Shown piece by piece: positions 1,487 through 21,462 of a DNA stretch of 36,652 bases (its first letter is position 1; each line of letters starts with the position of its first letter). The DNA is from an uncultured Eubacterium sp. (GTDB lineage: Bacteria; Bacillota; Clostridia; Lachnospirales; Lachnospiraceae). The stretch is taken from assembly GCA_947385775.1 (NCBI GenBank), contig CANDMI010000036.1, positions 1 to 36,652 of the forward strand, in the 5' to 3' direction. A model generated the notes under the pieces. The model worked only from the letters and a program-made list of their open reading frames with translations. It had not been told where the DNA came from and did no database searches. Position numbers and translations under genes: made by a program.

Positions 1487-2692
1487 CTATTTCTTTTTTT
1501 TCTCCAATTTATCAATCTGCCGCAGCGATTTTTTTATCGCGGTGTAAATGCCCTGGGCCGCCTTTTGCTGATACGCTCCATCCACCAGCCTGGCAAGCTC
1601 CGACGGATTATTGATAAATCCTACTTCAATTAACGCGGACGGCATCTGCGCGCTCCGGATAATGTATATTTTATGCCCGTTAATCAGACTCCTTTTTGTC
1701 GCGCCCGTCGCAAGCTGAGTCTCATCCAGGCAGATCTGGGCAAAATCTTTGGAATCAAATTCCGTATCCGGCGCCAATTCATCGTACATCACCTCGATGC
1801 CCTGCACATCCGTCCTGCCTTTAATGGAATTGATATGCACGCTGACAAATAGATCCGCCCCCATCTGGTTCGCCAGATTCACCCGGTCCGTTAAAGAAAC
1901 GTCCTTATCCTCCAGCCTTGTGCAATATATGCCGATATCCTTGTCCTTTTCACCTTCAAAAGCCGCCTTTACTTTCTGTACGATCGCAAGCGTAATGTCC
2001 TTTTCATAGACATTTCCCGCGACCGCCCCCGGCTCTCCGCCATGCCCGGCATCCACGACGACGATCCGCTTATGCTCCTCACTCGGTATTAGAAAATCCA
2101 GATATAAATAATCCTTATCAAAGCTGCTATCCGCATCGACGATCGTATTCATCGAAAGCAGGATCGTGCCAGCGCCACCCTCGCTTATATAATCTAAATT
2201 TGCAATTTCATCCGCCTTCCCGATGATCTGGTAATCATATAAATAATTTTCATCCGCGCCTGGAATTTTTATCGCTATTTGCCTGCCGATATAATCCGGC
2301 ACGATCAATACATCTTTTCCGTCTGTATTTTTCGGAAGCTCGATCCTCATTTTTTTATCCTGCGTATAGGTAATCTCCTCTTCTTTTACCTCTTCCTTTC
2401 CCTCTTCCACCTTTTCTTGCACCTGCTGCGTATTATAGTCCATAATCTCCAGACCGGACATTTCTTTTAGCATGGCGTAGCGTTCTTCCCTTTCATGCCG
2501 TTTTTGGAGCAGCCCCGCCCCAAATGCCTGCACGCCGCGCTCAATGCCCGGCAAAAACCACACCGCAATGCAGGAAAACAGGGAACATGCACAGATAAAC
2601 GCGGTCGTAAAGCGGACTAATTTTCGTTCCATCCTATTTTCCTTAGCGTCCTGGCTGTTTTTGCCAGCATGCTTCTTTTGCGAACCACTCAT
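1487..2692 (-). CDS. N-acetylmuramoyl-L-alanine amidase (Amidase_3), membrane-anchored
   Basis: 401 residues. A basic cytosolic N-terminus is followed by one hydrophobic segment (about residues 28-48), then a long charged stretch rich in E and K. A middle domain of unknown function precedes the C-terminal Amidase_3 catalytic domain from about residue 210. Zinc ligands and catalytic residues are visible: DAGHGG (His), the Glu of YEKD, SVHINS (His) and ALIEVGFINN (Glu). The enzyme would cut the amide bond between muramic acid and the stem peptide outside the membrane. Related proteins act in cell separation, sporulation or germination. Which of these applies cannot be told from the sequence. 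Confidence 0.93.
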   Translation of the reverse strand: MSGSQKKHAGKNSQDAKENRMERKLVRFTTAFICACSLFSCIAVWFLPGIERGVQAFGAGLLQKRHEREERYAMLKEMSGLEIMDYNTQQVQEKVEEGKEEVKEEEITYTQDKKMRIELPKNTDGKDVLIVPDYIGRQIAIKIPGADENYLYDYQIIGKADEIANLDYISEGGAGTILLSMNTIVDADSSFDKDYLYLDFLIPSEEHKRIVVVDAGHGGEPGAVAGNVYEKDITLAIVQKVKAAFEGEKDKDIGIYCTRLEDKDVSLTDRVNLANQMGADLFVSVHINSIKGRTDVQGIEVMYDELAPDTEFDSKDFAQICLDETQLATGATKRSLINGHKIYIIRSAQMPSALIEVGFINNPSELARLVDGAYQQKAAQGIYTAIKKSLRQIDKLEKKKK

Positions 2693-17140: not shown

Positions 17141-19714
17141 TTACACAACCTTATTCATGCAGCAATGCTTATATTTTTTCCCGCTCCCGCATGGACAAAG
17201 GTCATTTGGATAAACCTTTTTAACGTCGCGGGTTTTTGGCTTTTTCTCAGCGGAATCGTCTTTATTCGTTCCAGTCACCTTCGCAACCTCTTCCCGCTCT
17301 ACCTTTTCCTCTACCCGGACATGATACAGCAATCGCAGCGTATCCTCACGCATATTCTGCGTCATGCTGTCAAACATCTCAAAGCCCATCAGCTTATATT
17401 CCACAAGCGGATCTCTCTGCCCATATGCCTGCAAGCCGATTCCCTGGCGAAGCTGGTCCATATCGTCCAGATGCGCCATCCATTTGCGGTCTATGACCTT
17501 TAATAAAATGACGCGCTCTAACTCGCGTATCGCCTCCGGCTCCGGAAATTCCGCTTCCTTTTCCCCATACAGCTTGACCGCCTGCTCCTTTAGCTTATGC
17601 TGGACTTCTTTTACATTTTTGCAGTCCGCCACATTTTCTTCCGTCAAAGGCTCTAACGGGATGACCGGCAATAGCAGCTGGTTTAACTCGCTTAAATCCC
17701 ATTCCTCCCTGGCCACATCGTCTGACAGGCAGGACGCCACCGTGCCTTCTACAAAATCATCGATCATTTTATAAATCGACTCGCGCATGCTTTCTCCGTT
17801 CAACACCTTCATGCGCTCCTCGTATACGATCTCCCTTTGGTCATTCATAACCTGGTCATATTCCAGCAGGTTTTTACGGATGCCAAAGTTATTTCCCTCG
17901 ATCTTTTTCTGCGCCTTTTCAATCGCGTTCGTAAGCATTTTATGCTGTATCTCTTCGCCTTCCGGAACGCCCATGGCATTAAACACGTCCATCAGCTTTT
18001 CTGACCCAAACAGACGCATCAGGTCATCTTCCAGCGAAATGTAAAATTTCGATTCCCCAGGGTCGCCCTGACGCCCGGAACGCCCGCGCAGCTGGTTATC
18101 GATACGCCTGGACTCATGGCGCTCTGTGCCGATGATCTTAAGGCCGCCTGCCGCCCTCGCCTGCTCATCCAGCTTGATATCCGTACCACGGCCCGCCATG
18201 TTCGTGGCGATCGTGACCATCCCATGCTCCCCTGCGTGGCTTACAATCTCCGCCTCCAGCTCATGGAACTTTGCGTTTAACACCTGATGCTTAATGCCTC
18301 TGCGGTTTAGCATCTGGTCTAAAAGCTCTGATATCTCGATCGTAACCGTGCCAACGAGGACTGGCTGCCCTTTTTCATGGCTTTTTTCCACTTCATCGCA
18401 AACCGCCCGGAACTTCTCTTTCTTCGTTTTATATACGGCGTCCTGATGGTCAATACGGATCACCGGCTCATTGGTAGGGATCTCAATTACGTCCATCGCG
18501 TAAATGTCACGAAATTCCTGCTCTTCCGTCAAAGCCGTACCCGTCATGCCGGCTTTCTTTTCAAATTTATTAAAAAAGTTCTGGAACGTAATCGTCGCAA
18601 GCGTACGGCTCTCACGTTTTACTTTCACGTGCTCCTTTGCCTCGATCGCCTGGTGCAGCCCGTCGGAATAACGCCGCCCCGGCATAATGCGCCCGGTAAA
18701 TTCGTCTACGATCAGCACCTCGTCATCCTTAACGACGTAATCTTTATCCCGGAACATCAGGTTATGCGCCCGCAGCGCCAGAATAATGTTGTGCTGGATC
18801 TCCAAGTTTTCCGCGTCCGCCAGGTTTTCGATCTGGAAAAACTTTTCCACCTTCTTTACGCCGTCCGCGGTCAAGTTCACGACCTTGTCCTTTTCATTTA
18901 CGATAAAGTCGCCGTCCTCTTCCACTTCCACGCCCATAATCGCGTCCATCTTGCTAAATTCCCCTGTGCCGCTGCCACGCACCATCTGCTTTGCCAGAAT
19001 ATCGCACGCCTCATACAGTTTTGTGGATTTCCCGCTCTGCCCGGAAATGATAAGCGGCGTCCTTGCCTCGTCGATCAAAATCGAATCCACCTCATCGACG
19101 ATCGCAAAATGAAGCCCTCTTTGCACAAGCTGCTCTTTATAGATCACCATGTTATCTCTTAGATAATCGAATCCAAGCTCATTATTCGTAACGTAAGTGA
19201 TGTCACACGCATAAGCCTCACGGCGTTCATCGCTTTCCATGGAGTTTAAAATGCAGCCGACCTTCAGCCCCAAAAACTCATGGATCTGCCCCATCTCCGA
19301 AGCGTCACGCTGCGCCAGGTAATCATTGACCGTTACAATATGAACGCCTTTTCCTTCCAGCGCATTCAAATAAGAAGGCATAGTCGCGACCAGCGTCTTG
19401 CCCTCGCCGGTTTTCATCTCGGCGATGCGCCCCTGGTGCAGGATAATGCCGCCGATCAGCTGCACACGGTAAGGCTCCATGCCCAATACGCGCCTGGACG
19501 CTTCCCTTACTACCGCAAAAGCCTCAGGCAGGATATCGTCCATTTTCTCACCGTTTTCCAAACGCTTTTTAAACTCCTCCGTCTTAGCCTGCAACTGCTC
19601 ATCCGGCAATTCCATCATCGCAGGGCGCAGCGACTCGATCTTATCTACGGTCGGCTTGATCCTTTTTAACTCGCGTTCACTATGCGTTCCAAATATTTTT
19701 TCAAATGCTCCCAT
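17141..19714 (-). CDS. secA: Preprotein translocase ATPase SecA
   Basis: 857 residues, standard for SecA. Visible are the Walker A motif [11 protein letters not shown] near residue 100, the DEAD-type box [15 protein letters not shown], the helicase motif [25 protein letters not shown], and the C-terminal zinc-binding tail [15 protein letters not shown] that contacts SecB or lipids and ribosomes. SecA drives Sec-dependent export with SecYEG at the inner membrane. The ATG at 19714 has AGGAG six bases upstream. The gene has its own promoter and a structured leader. Confidence 0.98.
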
Positions 19715-19740
19715 ACAAATCTCCTATCATTCTGGTGTGT

Positions 19741-19784
19741 TATACCCGCCTAAACTTCATTATGCCATGGCAGCGGCGGGTATA
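19741..19784 (-). promoter_or_regulatory. Hairpin in the secA 5' leader
   Basis: TATACCCGCC (19741-19750) pairs perfectly with GGCGGGTATA (19775-19784), and the interior contains a palindrome TGCCATGGCA. It lies between the secA promoter and its ribosome binding site, ending about 26 bp before the ATG, so it could influence initiation or mRNA stability. Confidence 0.6.
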
Positions 19785-19848
19785 TACCTCACAGCTTTAC
19801 TGCAAATCATTCCGTTGTGCGGTATACATACAAAAAAACATTGCTTTC

Positions 19849-19877
19849 ATTATAACACGGTTTGTCCAATGACACAA
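19849..19877 (-). promoter_or_regulatory. secA promoter
   Basis: On the minus strand -35 TTGTGT (19872-19877), 17-bp spacer and -10 TATAAT (19849-19854). The transcript would have a leader of about 128 nt containing the hairpin at 19741-19784. Confidence 0.72.
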
Positions 19878-19994
19878 TCAATAATATCATGAATGTTTTG
19901 TGAATAAACGATAAACAAATAATCTGATTTTATTCTCTAATTTATCCAAAGTTCAGATAGCAAAAATTTTTTTTATTTTTTTTCTAAAAAGTTG

Positions 19995-20023
19995 TTGACA
20001 AATCTATCTTTGTTTGATATTAT
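19995..20023 (+). promoter_or_regulatory. Strong promoter of the candidate large RNA
   Basis: Perfect -35 TTGACA (19995-20000), exactly 17 bp, and an extended -10 TGATATTAT (hexamer 20018-20023). Long A/T tracts just upstream (19965-19990) look like an UP element. The start would be near 20030. No protein gene follows within 800 bp on this strand. Confidence 0.85.
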
Positions 20024-20029
20024 AATTTC

Positions 20030-20774
20030 AACAAATAACAAACGAGCAAAAAACAAAAAATAACCAAAAAACTAGAAAGTGGGGTGATTCCACCAGGAAC
20101 GATACGAAATACCCTATAATCTAAGAAAAGAGGTACAGTCCAATGTACAGTTTAATTTATCATCCGGTTATTTAAAAAAATCTAGGAAATGGAGAATGGT
20201 CCAATGAACACTTAAATGAAAACTCAGGAAAAATGAAAATCTGATGAAAGTGGGTACAGACCAATGGATGGAGAAATGAATGCGTAATATCATTTTTAAA
20301 ATCTAATGAAAGTCGAGGACACTCCGATGGGAAAGTAAAATAGACCCGAGGGCGCACCGAAAAAAGTGACCCGCACTGGGCAGGAAAAATCCAGTATTCA
20401 TATTGGTTAAAAATTTAAGAAAGCGGGGTAAATACCAATGCATGATTCATTCACGAAAACCGTTTTCAGATTAGTTAGACGCTAGACAAAAGACACCGTG
20501 AAAAATAATACAATATGAAGTGGTCAGAGATTCAGTCGAGTACATTCATATATGGGTTCAGATCAAACGTTTTCAAGGAAAACAGAAATGGATACCGAAT
20601 GACTAAGCTGGAGACGAAAAAAGTTTGTATCAGACAATGGTCGTGAGAATGATTTTATTTCCTTCAAAGATTAAGAAAACAGTTATTGAATAAAAAAGAA
20701 AGGCATGGTGTAAACCCATGGACATAGCAGTCTAAAAGGCGTCAGCAATTTGTTCAAATTGTTGGCGCCTTTTT
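20030..20774 (+). ncRNA. Candidate large modular non-coding RNA with about 60-nt repeat units
   Basis: The stretch has a strong promoter and a strong terminator on the plus strand but no plausible protein gene. It is built of degenerate units with the approximate form CTAAGAAAGNGGGNACANNCCAATGNA. The clear units begin near 20072, 20121, 20182, 20241, 20303, 20415, 20579 and 20692. Fainter units are seen near 20356, 20482 and 20631. In most units GG(U/A) and (A/U)CC can form a tiny hairpin of 2-4 bp with a 4-6 nt loop, placed between GAAAG and AAUG. The unit spacing is 49-62 nt, or about two or three times that where a unit has decayed. I cannot match it to RNase P, tmRNA, 6S, SRP RNA or a known riboswitch. 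Large Rfam classes such as ROOL, GOLLD or OLE cannot be excluded by eye. An alternative is a series of micro-ORFs, since an ATG closes nearly every unit. Confidence 0.65.
20734..20774. terminator. Strong bidirectional terminator of the candidate RNA and the PilZ gene
   Basis: A 14-bp stem, GGCGTCAGCAATTT (20738-20751) with AAATTGTTGGCGCC (20756-20769), includes two G-T pairs and closes a 4-nt GTTC loop. TTTTT follows on the plus strand and AAAA precedes. It can end both the plus-strand RNA and the minus-strand PilZ/HD-GYP transcript. Confidence 0.9.
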
Positions 20775-20802
20775 CGTATGCGCGGCTTAGCGTTTTTCCC
20801 TG

Positions 20803-21462
20803 TTATTTTTGATTCTTTTCACGCCGGATCTTTTCCGCTACATAATAGCCTAAATTTTCTTCCATATGCGTCAGACGGCATCCATAAAAAAACCCGCCGT
20901 TTTTTAATTCCCTTTTCCAAACGACCCTTGCTTCCACTTTAATTTCCGTCTCTTCATCCTCGTCGATCGTTTCATCCGTAAACTCTATCTGCAAATGCCG
21001 GTGCTCCTGTTCCTCGACTTTTACAGGGCTTTCAAAGCCAATGCCGTTGACGCACAGATCATGGACGTTAATGTCAATGCCCATGGGCTTGCTCGTAACC
21101 TTAAGCGTGCCAGGCAGGTTTAACACCACCCGCGGCACCTTACGGCGGTTGACCCTGACGCTTGGCTTTGGCGCCGCAAGCGCGTGATACTCCTTCCCGT
21201 CCACAGTCCTTCGCTGGATTTTGCAGTTTGTCCACGCCTTTGGCATATCCAGCCCGTCTTCATAAATGGTGATCAAATGCACATTTGGGCTGGAAAAATC
21301 GACAATCTGGTTTTCATGCCGGATCAGGTTCAGCAATACAACTTCCCCGCGGATATCCGCAACCACCGCCTTCATATCTACCAGCATGTCTCTAAATTTG
21401 CACCGGATCGTAAGATCCTGCCCTTTTTTCAACTCGGATAATTTCAAATCTGCCACCTCCAA
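20803..21462 (-). CDS. PilZ-domain c-di-GMP receptor (YcgR/DgrA-like)
   Basis: 219 residues. An N-terminal YcgR-N-like beta domain is followed by a PilZ domain from about residue 100. RVNRRKVPRV near residue 104 carries the RxxxR motif that binds c-di-GMP. The second motif (D/N)xSxxG reads DLCVNGIGF, with Cys in place of Ser. Such proteins act as flagellar brakes or regulators of surface behaviour in the cytosol. It lies 6 bp after the HD-GYP gene, so the receptor and the enzyme degrading c-di-GMP share a transcript. Confidence 0.88.
   Translation of the reverse strand: MEVADLKLSELKKGQDLTIRCKFRDMLVDMKAVVADIRGEVVLLNLIRHENQIVDFSSPNVHLITIYEDGLDMPKAWTNCKIQRRTVDGKEYHALAAPKPSVRVNRRKVPRVVLNLPGTLKVTSKPMGIDINVHDLCVNGIGFESPVKVEEQEHRHLQIEFTDETIDEDEETEIKVEARVVWKRELKNGGFFYGCRLTHMEENLGYYVAEKIRREKNQK

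Follow-up and report, generated by a model that had tools for sequence, protein, structure and literature searches.

Repeated Shine–Dalgarno–AUG–micro-ORF modules characterize an RNA family of Lachnospiraceae, other Clostridia and viral contigs

Between secA and a PilZ gene, the DNA analysed here (a 36,652-nt stretch from a gut bacterium, an uncultured Eubacterium sp., contig CANDMI010000036.1; hereafter the window) holds an RNA of ~745 nt that contains no ordinary gene and is built from repeated units of a Shine–Dalgarno (SD) site, an AUG and a short open reading frame. At the level of sequence, comparison with homologues establishes the RNA family, the anatomy of its modules, an excess of early in-frame stops, a covarying 3′ domain and a match between SD and anti-SD sequences. 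The module anatomy is well supported, and from it we infer translation and function: we give even chances to an explanation in which the members are RNAs of ribosome-loaded SD–AUG–micro-ORF modules that would be translated, would keep ribosomes resident and would serve protection or capture. Because no match was found in Rfam 15 and no description in the open literature covered, we regard the RNA family as new.

The preliminary description of this DNA had proposed a large RNA, modular and structured, between a promoter and a terminator of its own, and homologues and covarying base pairs now bear this out. The near-consensus promoter and the strong terminator that it reported are both present (see the features below), the latter as an inverted repeat (20734–20752/20755–20773) with 19-nt arms that are 89% complementary. 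Its claim of ~745 nt without a plausible protein gene also holds: the sense strand inside the RNA has no ORF of at least 60 aa, and an antisense 61-aa GTG ORF lies at 20172–20357. The RNA strand folds 4.1 sd below shuffles (20 shuffles only). A regular-expression search of 13 intergenic regions finds the promoter in 12 of the 13 members of the genus; the contig of the 13th (G006) stops within the RNA. The segment 20000–20050 of the window, with the promoter and start region, is unusually conserved across the genus and contains imperfect palindromes (ACAAA..TTTGT and TTTGTTTGA..TTCAACAAA) that might be an operator. The features, all on the forward strand and with each micro-ORF ending in a stop codon, are as follows.

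19995–20023, forward: promoter, TTGACA-17-TATTAT with TG before the −10 box, 11 of 12 consensus matches
20030–20074, forward: A-rich 5′ leader (AACAAA..AACAAACG..), its putative start site deduced from the promoter
20075–20094, forward: 5′ module GAAAGTGGGGTGATTCCACC, an extended complement of the 16S 3′ end without AUG; −20.4 kcal/mol with GGAUCACCUCCUUUCU
20143–20175, forward: micro-ORF 1, MYSLIYHPVI, SD GAGG 9 nt upstream
20204–20215, forward: micro-ORF 2, MNT, SD GGAG 9 nt upstream
20264–20287, forward: micro-ORF 3, MDGEMNA, weak SD only (GTGGGT)
20327–20338, forward: micro-ORF 4, MGK, SD GAGG 8 nt upstream
20438–20485, forward: micro-ORF 5, MHDSFTKTVFRLVRR, SD GGGG 9 nt upstream; overlaps the 5′ strand of the 3′ domain
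20461–20612, forward: structured 3′ domain of nested helices whose apical sequence is conserved (model R1)
20588–20602, forward: possible micro-ORF 6, MDTE, behind AAGG; a weaker case, of very variable length among species
20718–20735, forward: terminal micro-ORF, MDIAV, SD-like AAAGG 14 nt upstream, a larger distance than other modules have
20734–20773, forward: intrinsic terminator, its stem overlapping the stop codon of the last micro-ORF

The module motif has the consensus GAAAGnGRGGnACAgnCCAAUG, that is, an SD site ~9 nt ahead of an AUG. All eight clear copies claimed in the preliminary description lie where it placed them, with four consecutive copies spaced 59–62 nt apart; at the faint copies that it added (20356, 20482 and 20631) no module is seen, and 20482 falls in the 3′ domain. 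The first copy (20072) is atypical, with an extended SD and no AUG, and the remaining seven each have an AUG with in-frame ORFs of 10, 3, 7, 3, 15, 4 and 5 codons, four of which stop within 5 further codons. The pattern GAAAGNGGGGNACANNCCAATG with up to 3 mismatches matches twice in the window, both times in the RNA (0.04 expected), and a looser pattern matches 7 times versus 4.5 expected, a number reached by 19/100 shuffles and not significant window-wide; 4 of these 7 matches are inside the RNA. The repeats are real, but the view of each as a mini-hairpin unit of a non-coding RNA gives way to a better reading as a ribosome-binding site plus start codon, and the label 'non-coding' is probably wrong for this RNA. 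Relative to the perfect anti-SD complement AAAGGAGGU, many copies with the consensus GAAAG-N-GAGGU (e.g. window 20308–20318 and 20419–20428) carry a single additional, variable base after AAAG and before GAGG, which may weaken or fine-tune the SD.

A DNA search of 41 genomes finds the RNA in 13/13 genomes of the genus (the Eubacterium plexicaudatum group, including E. plexicaudatum ASF492 of the Altered Schaedler Flora), a result repeated with the 3′ half as query, and in 0/12 genomes (12 genera) from the rest of the family. The 16 order genomes in this search give two weak matches: that in G026 is a chance match to a coding sequence that reads as cysS-like, and that in G038 has an E-value of 7.6e-4 over 30 nt. 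The PilZ gene lies after the RNA, and convergent to it, in 13/13 genus members, and secA is on the other side in 11/13 (the window and 10/12 relatives), the remaining two contigs ending too early; the SecA and PilZ domains are confirmed for the window genes. The family extends beyond the secA–PilZ locus, where the preliminary description had suggested collecting homologues. RNA length in the genus ranges from ~0.6 kb (G011) to ~1.7 kb (G009); the start and the 3′ part are conserved, and most of the difference is due to how many motif units lie between them.

Absent from the preliminary description was what lies inside the modules that it took to be non-coding, namely an AUG with a short in-frame ORF. 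We analysed 17 homologous RNAs (13 from the genus, one from G393, two from G170 and L058), with AUGs chosen by upstream sequence only and a permissive list of SD-like tetramers, which gives 115 sites. A stop within five further sense codons occurs at 92/115 sites in frame versus 27 in the +1 and 25 in the +2 frame (shuffle control: mean 44, maximum 62 of 2000), although these sites are related by descent and not independent, so that the frame statistics overstate the number of events. The early stop is also found (i) at 75/96 sites in frame versus 21 and 25 when a strict SD tetramer is required; (ii) at 89/112 versus 27 and 25 with duplicates removed; and (iii) without the five-codon and long MHD-type ORFs, as a stop within three codons, at 26/40 versus 6 and 5. 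At 114/115 sites an in-frame stop follows within 14 further codons, 61/115 micro-ORFs have exactly five codons, and stop usage over the 115 sites is TAA 80, TGA 18 and TAG 17. The nearest strict SD lies 7–10 nt from the AUG in 95/115 modules (71 at exactly 9), 13–14 nt away in 12 and 4 nt away in one, while 7 modules have none. A single RNA holds as many as 12 motif-defined AUGs. The combination typical of minigenes (SD, AUG, few codons and stop) is thus present at the same 92/115 sites, or 75/96 with a strict SD. Some modules have lost the early stop (e.g. G012 at 700 with 31 codons and G002 at 461 with 12 codons), and codon-position entropies over 53 unique five-codon ORFs are mixed, with no uniform third-position excess. 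The frame comparison indicates that the micro-ORFs behind the motif are under selection for an early in-frame stop; we read this as selection of early in-frame stopping more than of the peptide.

Complementarity to the 16S rRNA was evaluated with the 3′ tail taken from the 16S gene of a genus member (G005); a first tail pattern found nothing in 8 genomes, and a shorter one found one 16S end among 7 genomes. The strongest complement to this tail in the window is the 5′ module, whose energy of −20.4 kcal/mol beats the best of 60 shuffles and which, ~45 nt from the deduced start, places a strong SD near the 5′ end as in 5′ SD stabilizers. In 10 of the 17 RNAs, with 60 shuffles each, sites at −10 kcal/mol or better exceed the shuffle mean in 9/10 and the largest shuffle in 6; the counts lie within the shuffle range in the window (6, largest shuffle 7), L058, G170a and G170b. 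Judged by their single best site, 4/10 RNAs, the window included, outdo every shuffle; in the other 6/10 a shuffle reaches that energy. The 5′ module has no AUG throughout the genus, and internal SD modules in G393 (L051) and L115 have CCACC in place of CCAAUG; such AUG-less SD modules are perhaps pure 30S docking sites.

Just ahead of the terminator, the final ORF encodes MDIAV, MDISV, MDSIV and similar. In 24 unique equal-length forms, bacterial and viral, codon 2 varies at position 3 only, with Asp in all but one; residues change freely at codons 3 and 4, and codon 4 has A as its third base in 23/24. G001 and G006, in which this ORF is one codon longer, were left out of the count. All three stop codons occur with the frame maintained; the four unique MDSIV forms, distinguished by synonymous changes only, use TAA, TAG and TGA. 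The terminal ORF has no clean three-base rhythm. With stems drawn generously (up to two mismatches), the terminator stem reaches into or spans the last stop codon in 23/24 bacterial members and begins right after it in the 24th (G008); in the two viral loci measured it begins 13–16 nt after the stop. Because the stop codon is at or beside the terminator stem, a ribosome initiating on the five-codon terminal ORF would stand directly against the hairpin. The ORF ahead of the 3′ domain (micro-ORF 5 in the window) ends in VFxLV in 13/13 members of the genus: the exchanges GUU/GUC, AGA/AGG and UUA/UUG are synonymous, the residues at x and beyond V change, and each of the three stop codons is used.

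The 3′ domain was modelled on the 13 genus sequences (R1, 152 positions). R1 matches 5 of 397 family genomes, i.e. three of the genus, G393 (50.8 bits) and G170, the last with two copies (48.2 and 46.0 bits), and among 295 order genomes it matches its own genome only. A pattern scan of genome contigs gave 19 stretches, 15 of which R1 supports, including a compact new member (L058); L063, L064, L065 and L068 have no R1 support and were rejected. The 3′-domain pattern has no matches in viral contigs. In the alignment of 17 sequences, 97.2% of cells pair and double-sided changes occur in 20/37 pairs versus 5.8 when shuffled and at most 7 when slid, an alignment that is fitted to the model and so leans towards R1; the genus alone has a double change in just 1/37 pairs. 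Covariation is clear in the helix CCNUGA/UCANGG and in UGGUC/GAUCA, which appears as GAAC/GUUC and GAAAC/GUUU in G170. By these predicted pairings, the 152-nt domain recurs with covariation in other Lachnospiraceae. The two compact RNA copies of G170 are 16 kb apart and outside the secA locus (L052 4495–4630 and L053 4829–4963, minus strand).

Further relatives were found by motif patterns. A family scan (397 genomes) matched 10, one of them in the genus; the other nine comprise four clear members (L112–L115), one plausible member (L110) and four stretches of ordinary coding sequence, which were rejected (L107, L108, L111 and L116). Two of them, L113 (43.2 bits) and L114 (27.2 bits), have a core that R1 recognizes; in L110, L112 and L115 R1 has no core match. 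Three carriers belonging to two other families (L100–102) came from a class-wide scan of 391 genomes, which gave no match to a reversed control pattern among the matches listed; both scans give lower bounds, since their strict patterns miss the window's own genome and the family scan also misses G393 and G170. The 16 genomes of the order of G885 hold no carriers beyond the two already known. The RNAs of the three carriers (~390 nt) start with MKS, MRK or MRI, end with MLDIKIEQK or MMLDTKSEQR and have a different core without an R1 match. MLDIKIEQK differs between L101 and L102 at three sites, all synonymous, and the early-stop frame test does not discriminate for the terminal ORFs of L100–102 at the limit used. 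At the other loci, the neighbours differ from secA and PilZ.

In viral contigs, a first motif scan gave 8 stretches, 7 of which have the exact sequence GAAAGAGAGGTACAGTCCAATGG followed by a second module and a terminator; the eighth (L079) is ordinary coding sequence and was rejected. With two further scans the total is 20 copies of a ~190-nt two-module RNA in 19 contigs, several of them near-identical. All 18 stretches of one pattern and 13/20 of the other are members, and the second pattern's L081–083, L085–087 and L093 were rejected as unrelated sequence. The viral ORFs read MG, MV (stops TAA and TGA), MGN or MYR, then MDNVA, MDRIA and similar. Among unique sequences the early stop does not discriminate between frames, either in module A (12/12 in frame but 9/12 in +1) or in module B (12/12 in both). 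DNA polymerase III alpha is the next gene in the two viral loci checked with Pfam (L077 and L098). One contig (L092, IMGVR_UViG_3300028048_000121) has two diverged two-module copies ~1.4 kb apart on the minus strand, encoding MG/MDNVA and MYR/MDNVN. A two-end viral pattern gave no matches, and BLAST searches of phages (INPHARED) and plasmids gave weak short matches or none.

The explanation to which we give even chances can be outlined as follows. A unit consists of an SD site, an AUG usually 7–10 nt on, a micro-ORF mostly of 2–15 codons and a stop; bacterial forms combine an SD module at the 5′ end with as many as about a dozen internal ones and a terminal one, its stop codon at the base of the terminator stem, and many have a structured core besides. 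30S subunits and ribosomes would dock at the modules, make a few bonds at most and then leave or pause; mostly they would not run on, so the core would not be unfolded, and the RNA would stay coated by initiating or terminating ribosomes and capped at both ends. Such a coat would protect the RNA, as Bacillus 5′ SD stabilizers do, and/or hold ribosomes. We also suggest, more tentatively and at less than even confidence, that these may be ribosome-parking RNAs, a new kind shared by bacteria and phages and made of interchangeable SD–AUG–micro-ORF–stop modules, in which starting and stopping translation would be the activity and ribosomes would be bound partners, not makers of a product, with two (viral) to about a dozen modules that would evolve by gain and loss of units and could frame unrelated structured cores. 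The RNA family makes the boundary between coding and non-coding RNA less sharp: ORFs this short are dropped by gene finders, and to RNA finders the repeats would pass for structural elements. Should ribosomes indeed sit on the RNA, it would offer a natural system for initiation–termination cycling and ribosome protection of RNA, and possibly a ribosome-directed RNA of large phages.

The first alternative to consider, although an unlikely one, is a micropeptide operon, in which very short peptides (MDSIV, MHD..VFRLVT, MDISV and others) would be products acting on the ribosome, the cell or its neighbours. The synonymous-only changes in four MDSIV forms and two MLDIKIEQK forms and the VFxLV ending kept in 13/13 genus members would fit this, but many ORFs encode 2–3 residues (MI, MG, MV and MIT), internal peptides diverge and vary in number, residues at codons 3 and 4 of the terminal ORF change freely, and inspection by eye finds no constant export or processing gene beside the loci with listed ORFs. 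A translation sink comes next and is also unlikely: its modules would act like minigenes that sequester initiating ribosomes, initiator tRNA or peptidyl-tRNAs, and the RNA would serve bacteria as a brake and phages as a means of host control. Phage lambda bar minigenes are a precedent, and ORFs of two to five codons behind SDs, expansion in copy number, consensus-like promoters and the DNA polymerase III alpha gene after the viral copies in the two loci checked all argue for it, as does the frequent drop-off of short peptidyl-tRNAs in early elongation in E. coli, as given in the accessible text of PMC10192219. A sink, however, would not require a covarying structured core.

It is improbable, in our view, that the RNA is truly non-coding, its repeats binding a protein and its AUGs being part of the recognition sequence, e.g. 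as a CsrB-like decoy of CsrA. Variable repeat number, near-identity of the motif over large distances and viral early stops that are not confined to one frame point that way, but a protein site leaves the in-frame stop excess unexplained. CsrB and CsrC decoy RNAs likewise have a variable number of repeats in one RNA; there the repeats are sites of GGA, the core of the CsrA site, and here GGA is hardly enriched (324 versus 299 expected), and 59/115 modules have none in the 22 nt ahead of the AUG (56/115 do). CsrA (PF02599) is over the cut-off in 17/20 Lachnospiraceae carriers, the genome of L110 included, versus 3/9 non-carriers, but in 0/3 carriers outside the family, whose genomes are 74–89% complete. 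With GGA not enriched and CsrA common but not universal in carriers, a CsrA decoy is not supported. Several genus members (G002, G003, G005, G007 and G010) have 3–6 CsrA-like matches; in addition to the short one usually present, there are some that lie in longer ORFs. Least probable is an attenuator in which translation of the last micro-ORF would decide formation of the overlapping terminator: the stop codon does overlap or abut the terminator stem in 24/24 bacterial members, but the gene downstream is not constant, PilZ being convergent in the genus and the neighbours differing at other loci, and the stem begins 13–16 nt after the stop in the two viral loci measured.

The ribosome-loaded modules proposed here have partial likenesses among known systems. 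ROOL and GOLLD have a defined multi-stem fold and assemble into nanocages. Our RNA resembles ROOL, GOLLD and OLE in being large, ornate and probably a transcript of its own, but it varies in length with module number, and SD–AUG modules are its most widespread part. According to the accessible text of PMC12286853, ROOL is encoded in phages and prophages, and binding of ribosomes by GOLLD in pull-downs has been reported. In B. subtilis, RNA is stabilized by a strong SD close to its 5′ end, even one that lacks a start codon (PMC3997798, accessible part), and the 5′ module here shares such an SD with STAB-SD and other Bacillus 5′ SD stabilizers as described there. Those stabilizers sit in mRNA leaders, whereas here the modules recur throughout an RNA that has no ordinary gene, its two ends included. 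The lambda bar minigene inhibits translation through peptidyl-tRNA drop-off; it and the axe-txe mini-ORF share with our modules an SD followed by a two- to few-codon ORF, but both are single elements in other transcripts, and here there are up to 12 AUGs per RNA. A likeness of our five-codon ORFs to macrolide-resistance pentapeptide minigenes was considered and rejected, as nothing close was found in the open literature covered and the residues do not fit throughout. The two-codon axe-txe mini-ORF acts in cis, possibly protecting its mRNA (PMC8708949, accessible part). Downstream-peptide RNA/yfr6, as presented in the accessible text of PMC2864571, was a predicted ncRNA with a conserved short ORF recognized by synonymous changes; it differs in having one ORF of 17–100 aa behind a riboswitch candidate in cyanobacteria.

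No description of the RNA was found in the open literature, including the accessible text of PMC2864571, PMC11109978 and PMC12286853; subscription papers fell outside this scope. An Rfam search (cmscan, E up to 5) of window positions 19700–20900 gave five weak matches, all to other families; L051–053 and L100–102 (E up to 1) matched other families only, and the seven viral loci (E up to 0.5) had no match. The suggestion in the preliminary description that the RNA might be ROOL, GOLLD or OLE, whose models we take to belong to the Rfam library searched, fails with the lack of any match to these models at E up to 5, and a known large RNA class, as modelled in Rfam, is rejected for the window and its relatives. 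Rfam 15 thus has no above-chance match to the RNA or its relatives, and the other families are matched elsewhere in those loci. A cobalamin riboswitch (59.3 bits; L053 1042–1234, minus strand) lies a few kb from one RNA copy. In L100 (G1037), a Gut-1 RNA (RF01706, 72.6 bits; 2098–2172, plus strand) lies downstream of the RNA and a tRNA, and a weaker inverted Gut-1 copy (38.9 bits, below the gathering score; 2191–2276, minus strand) adjoins it.
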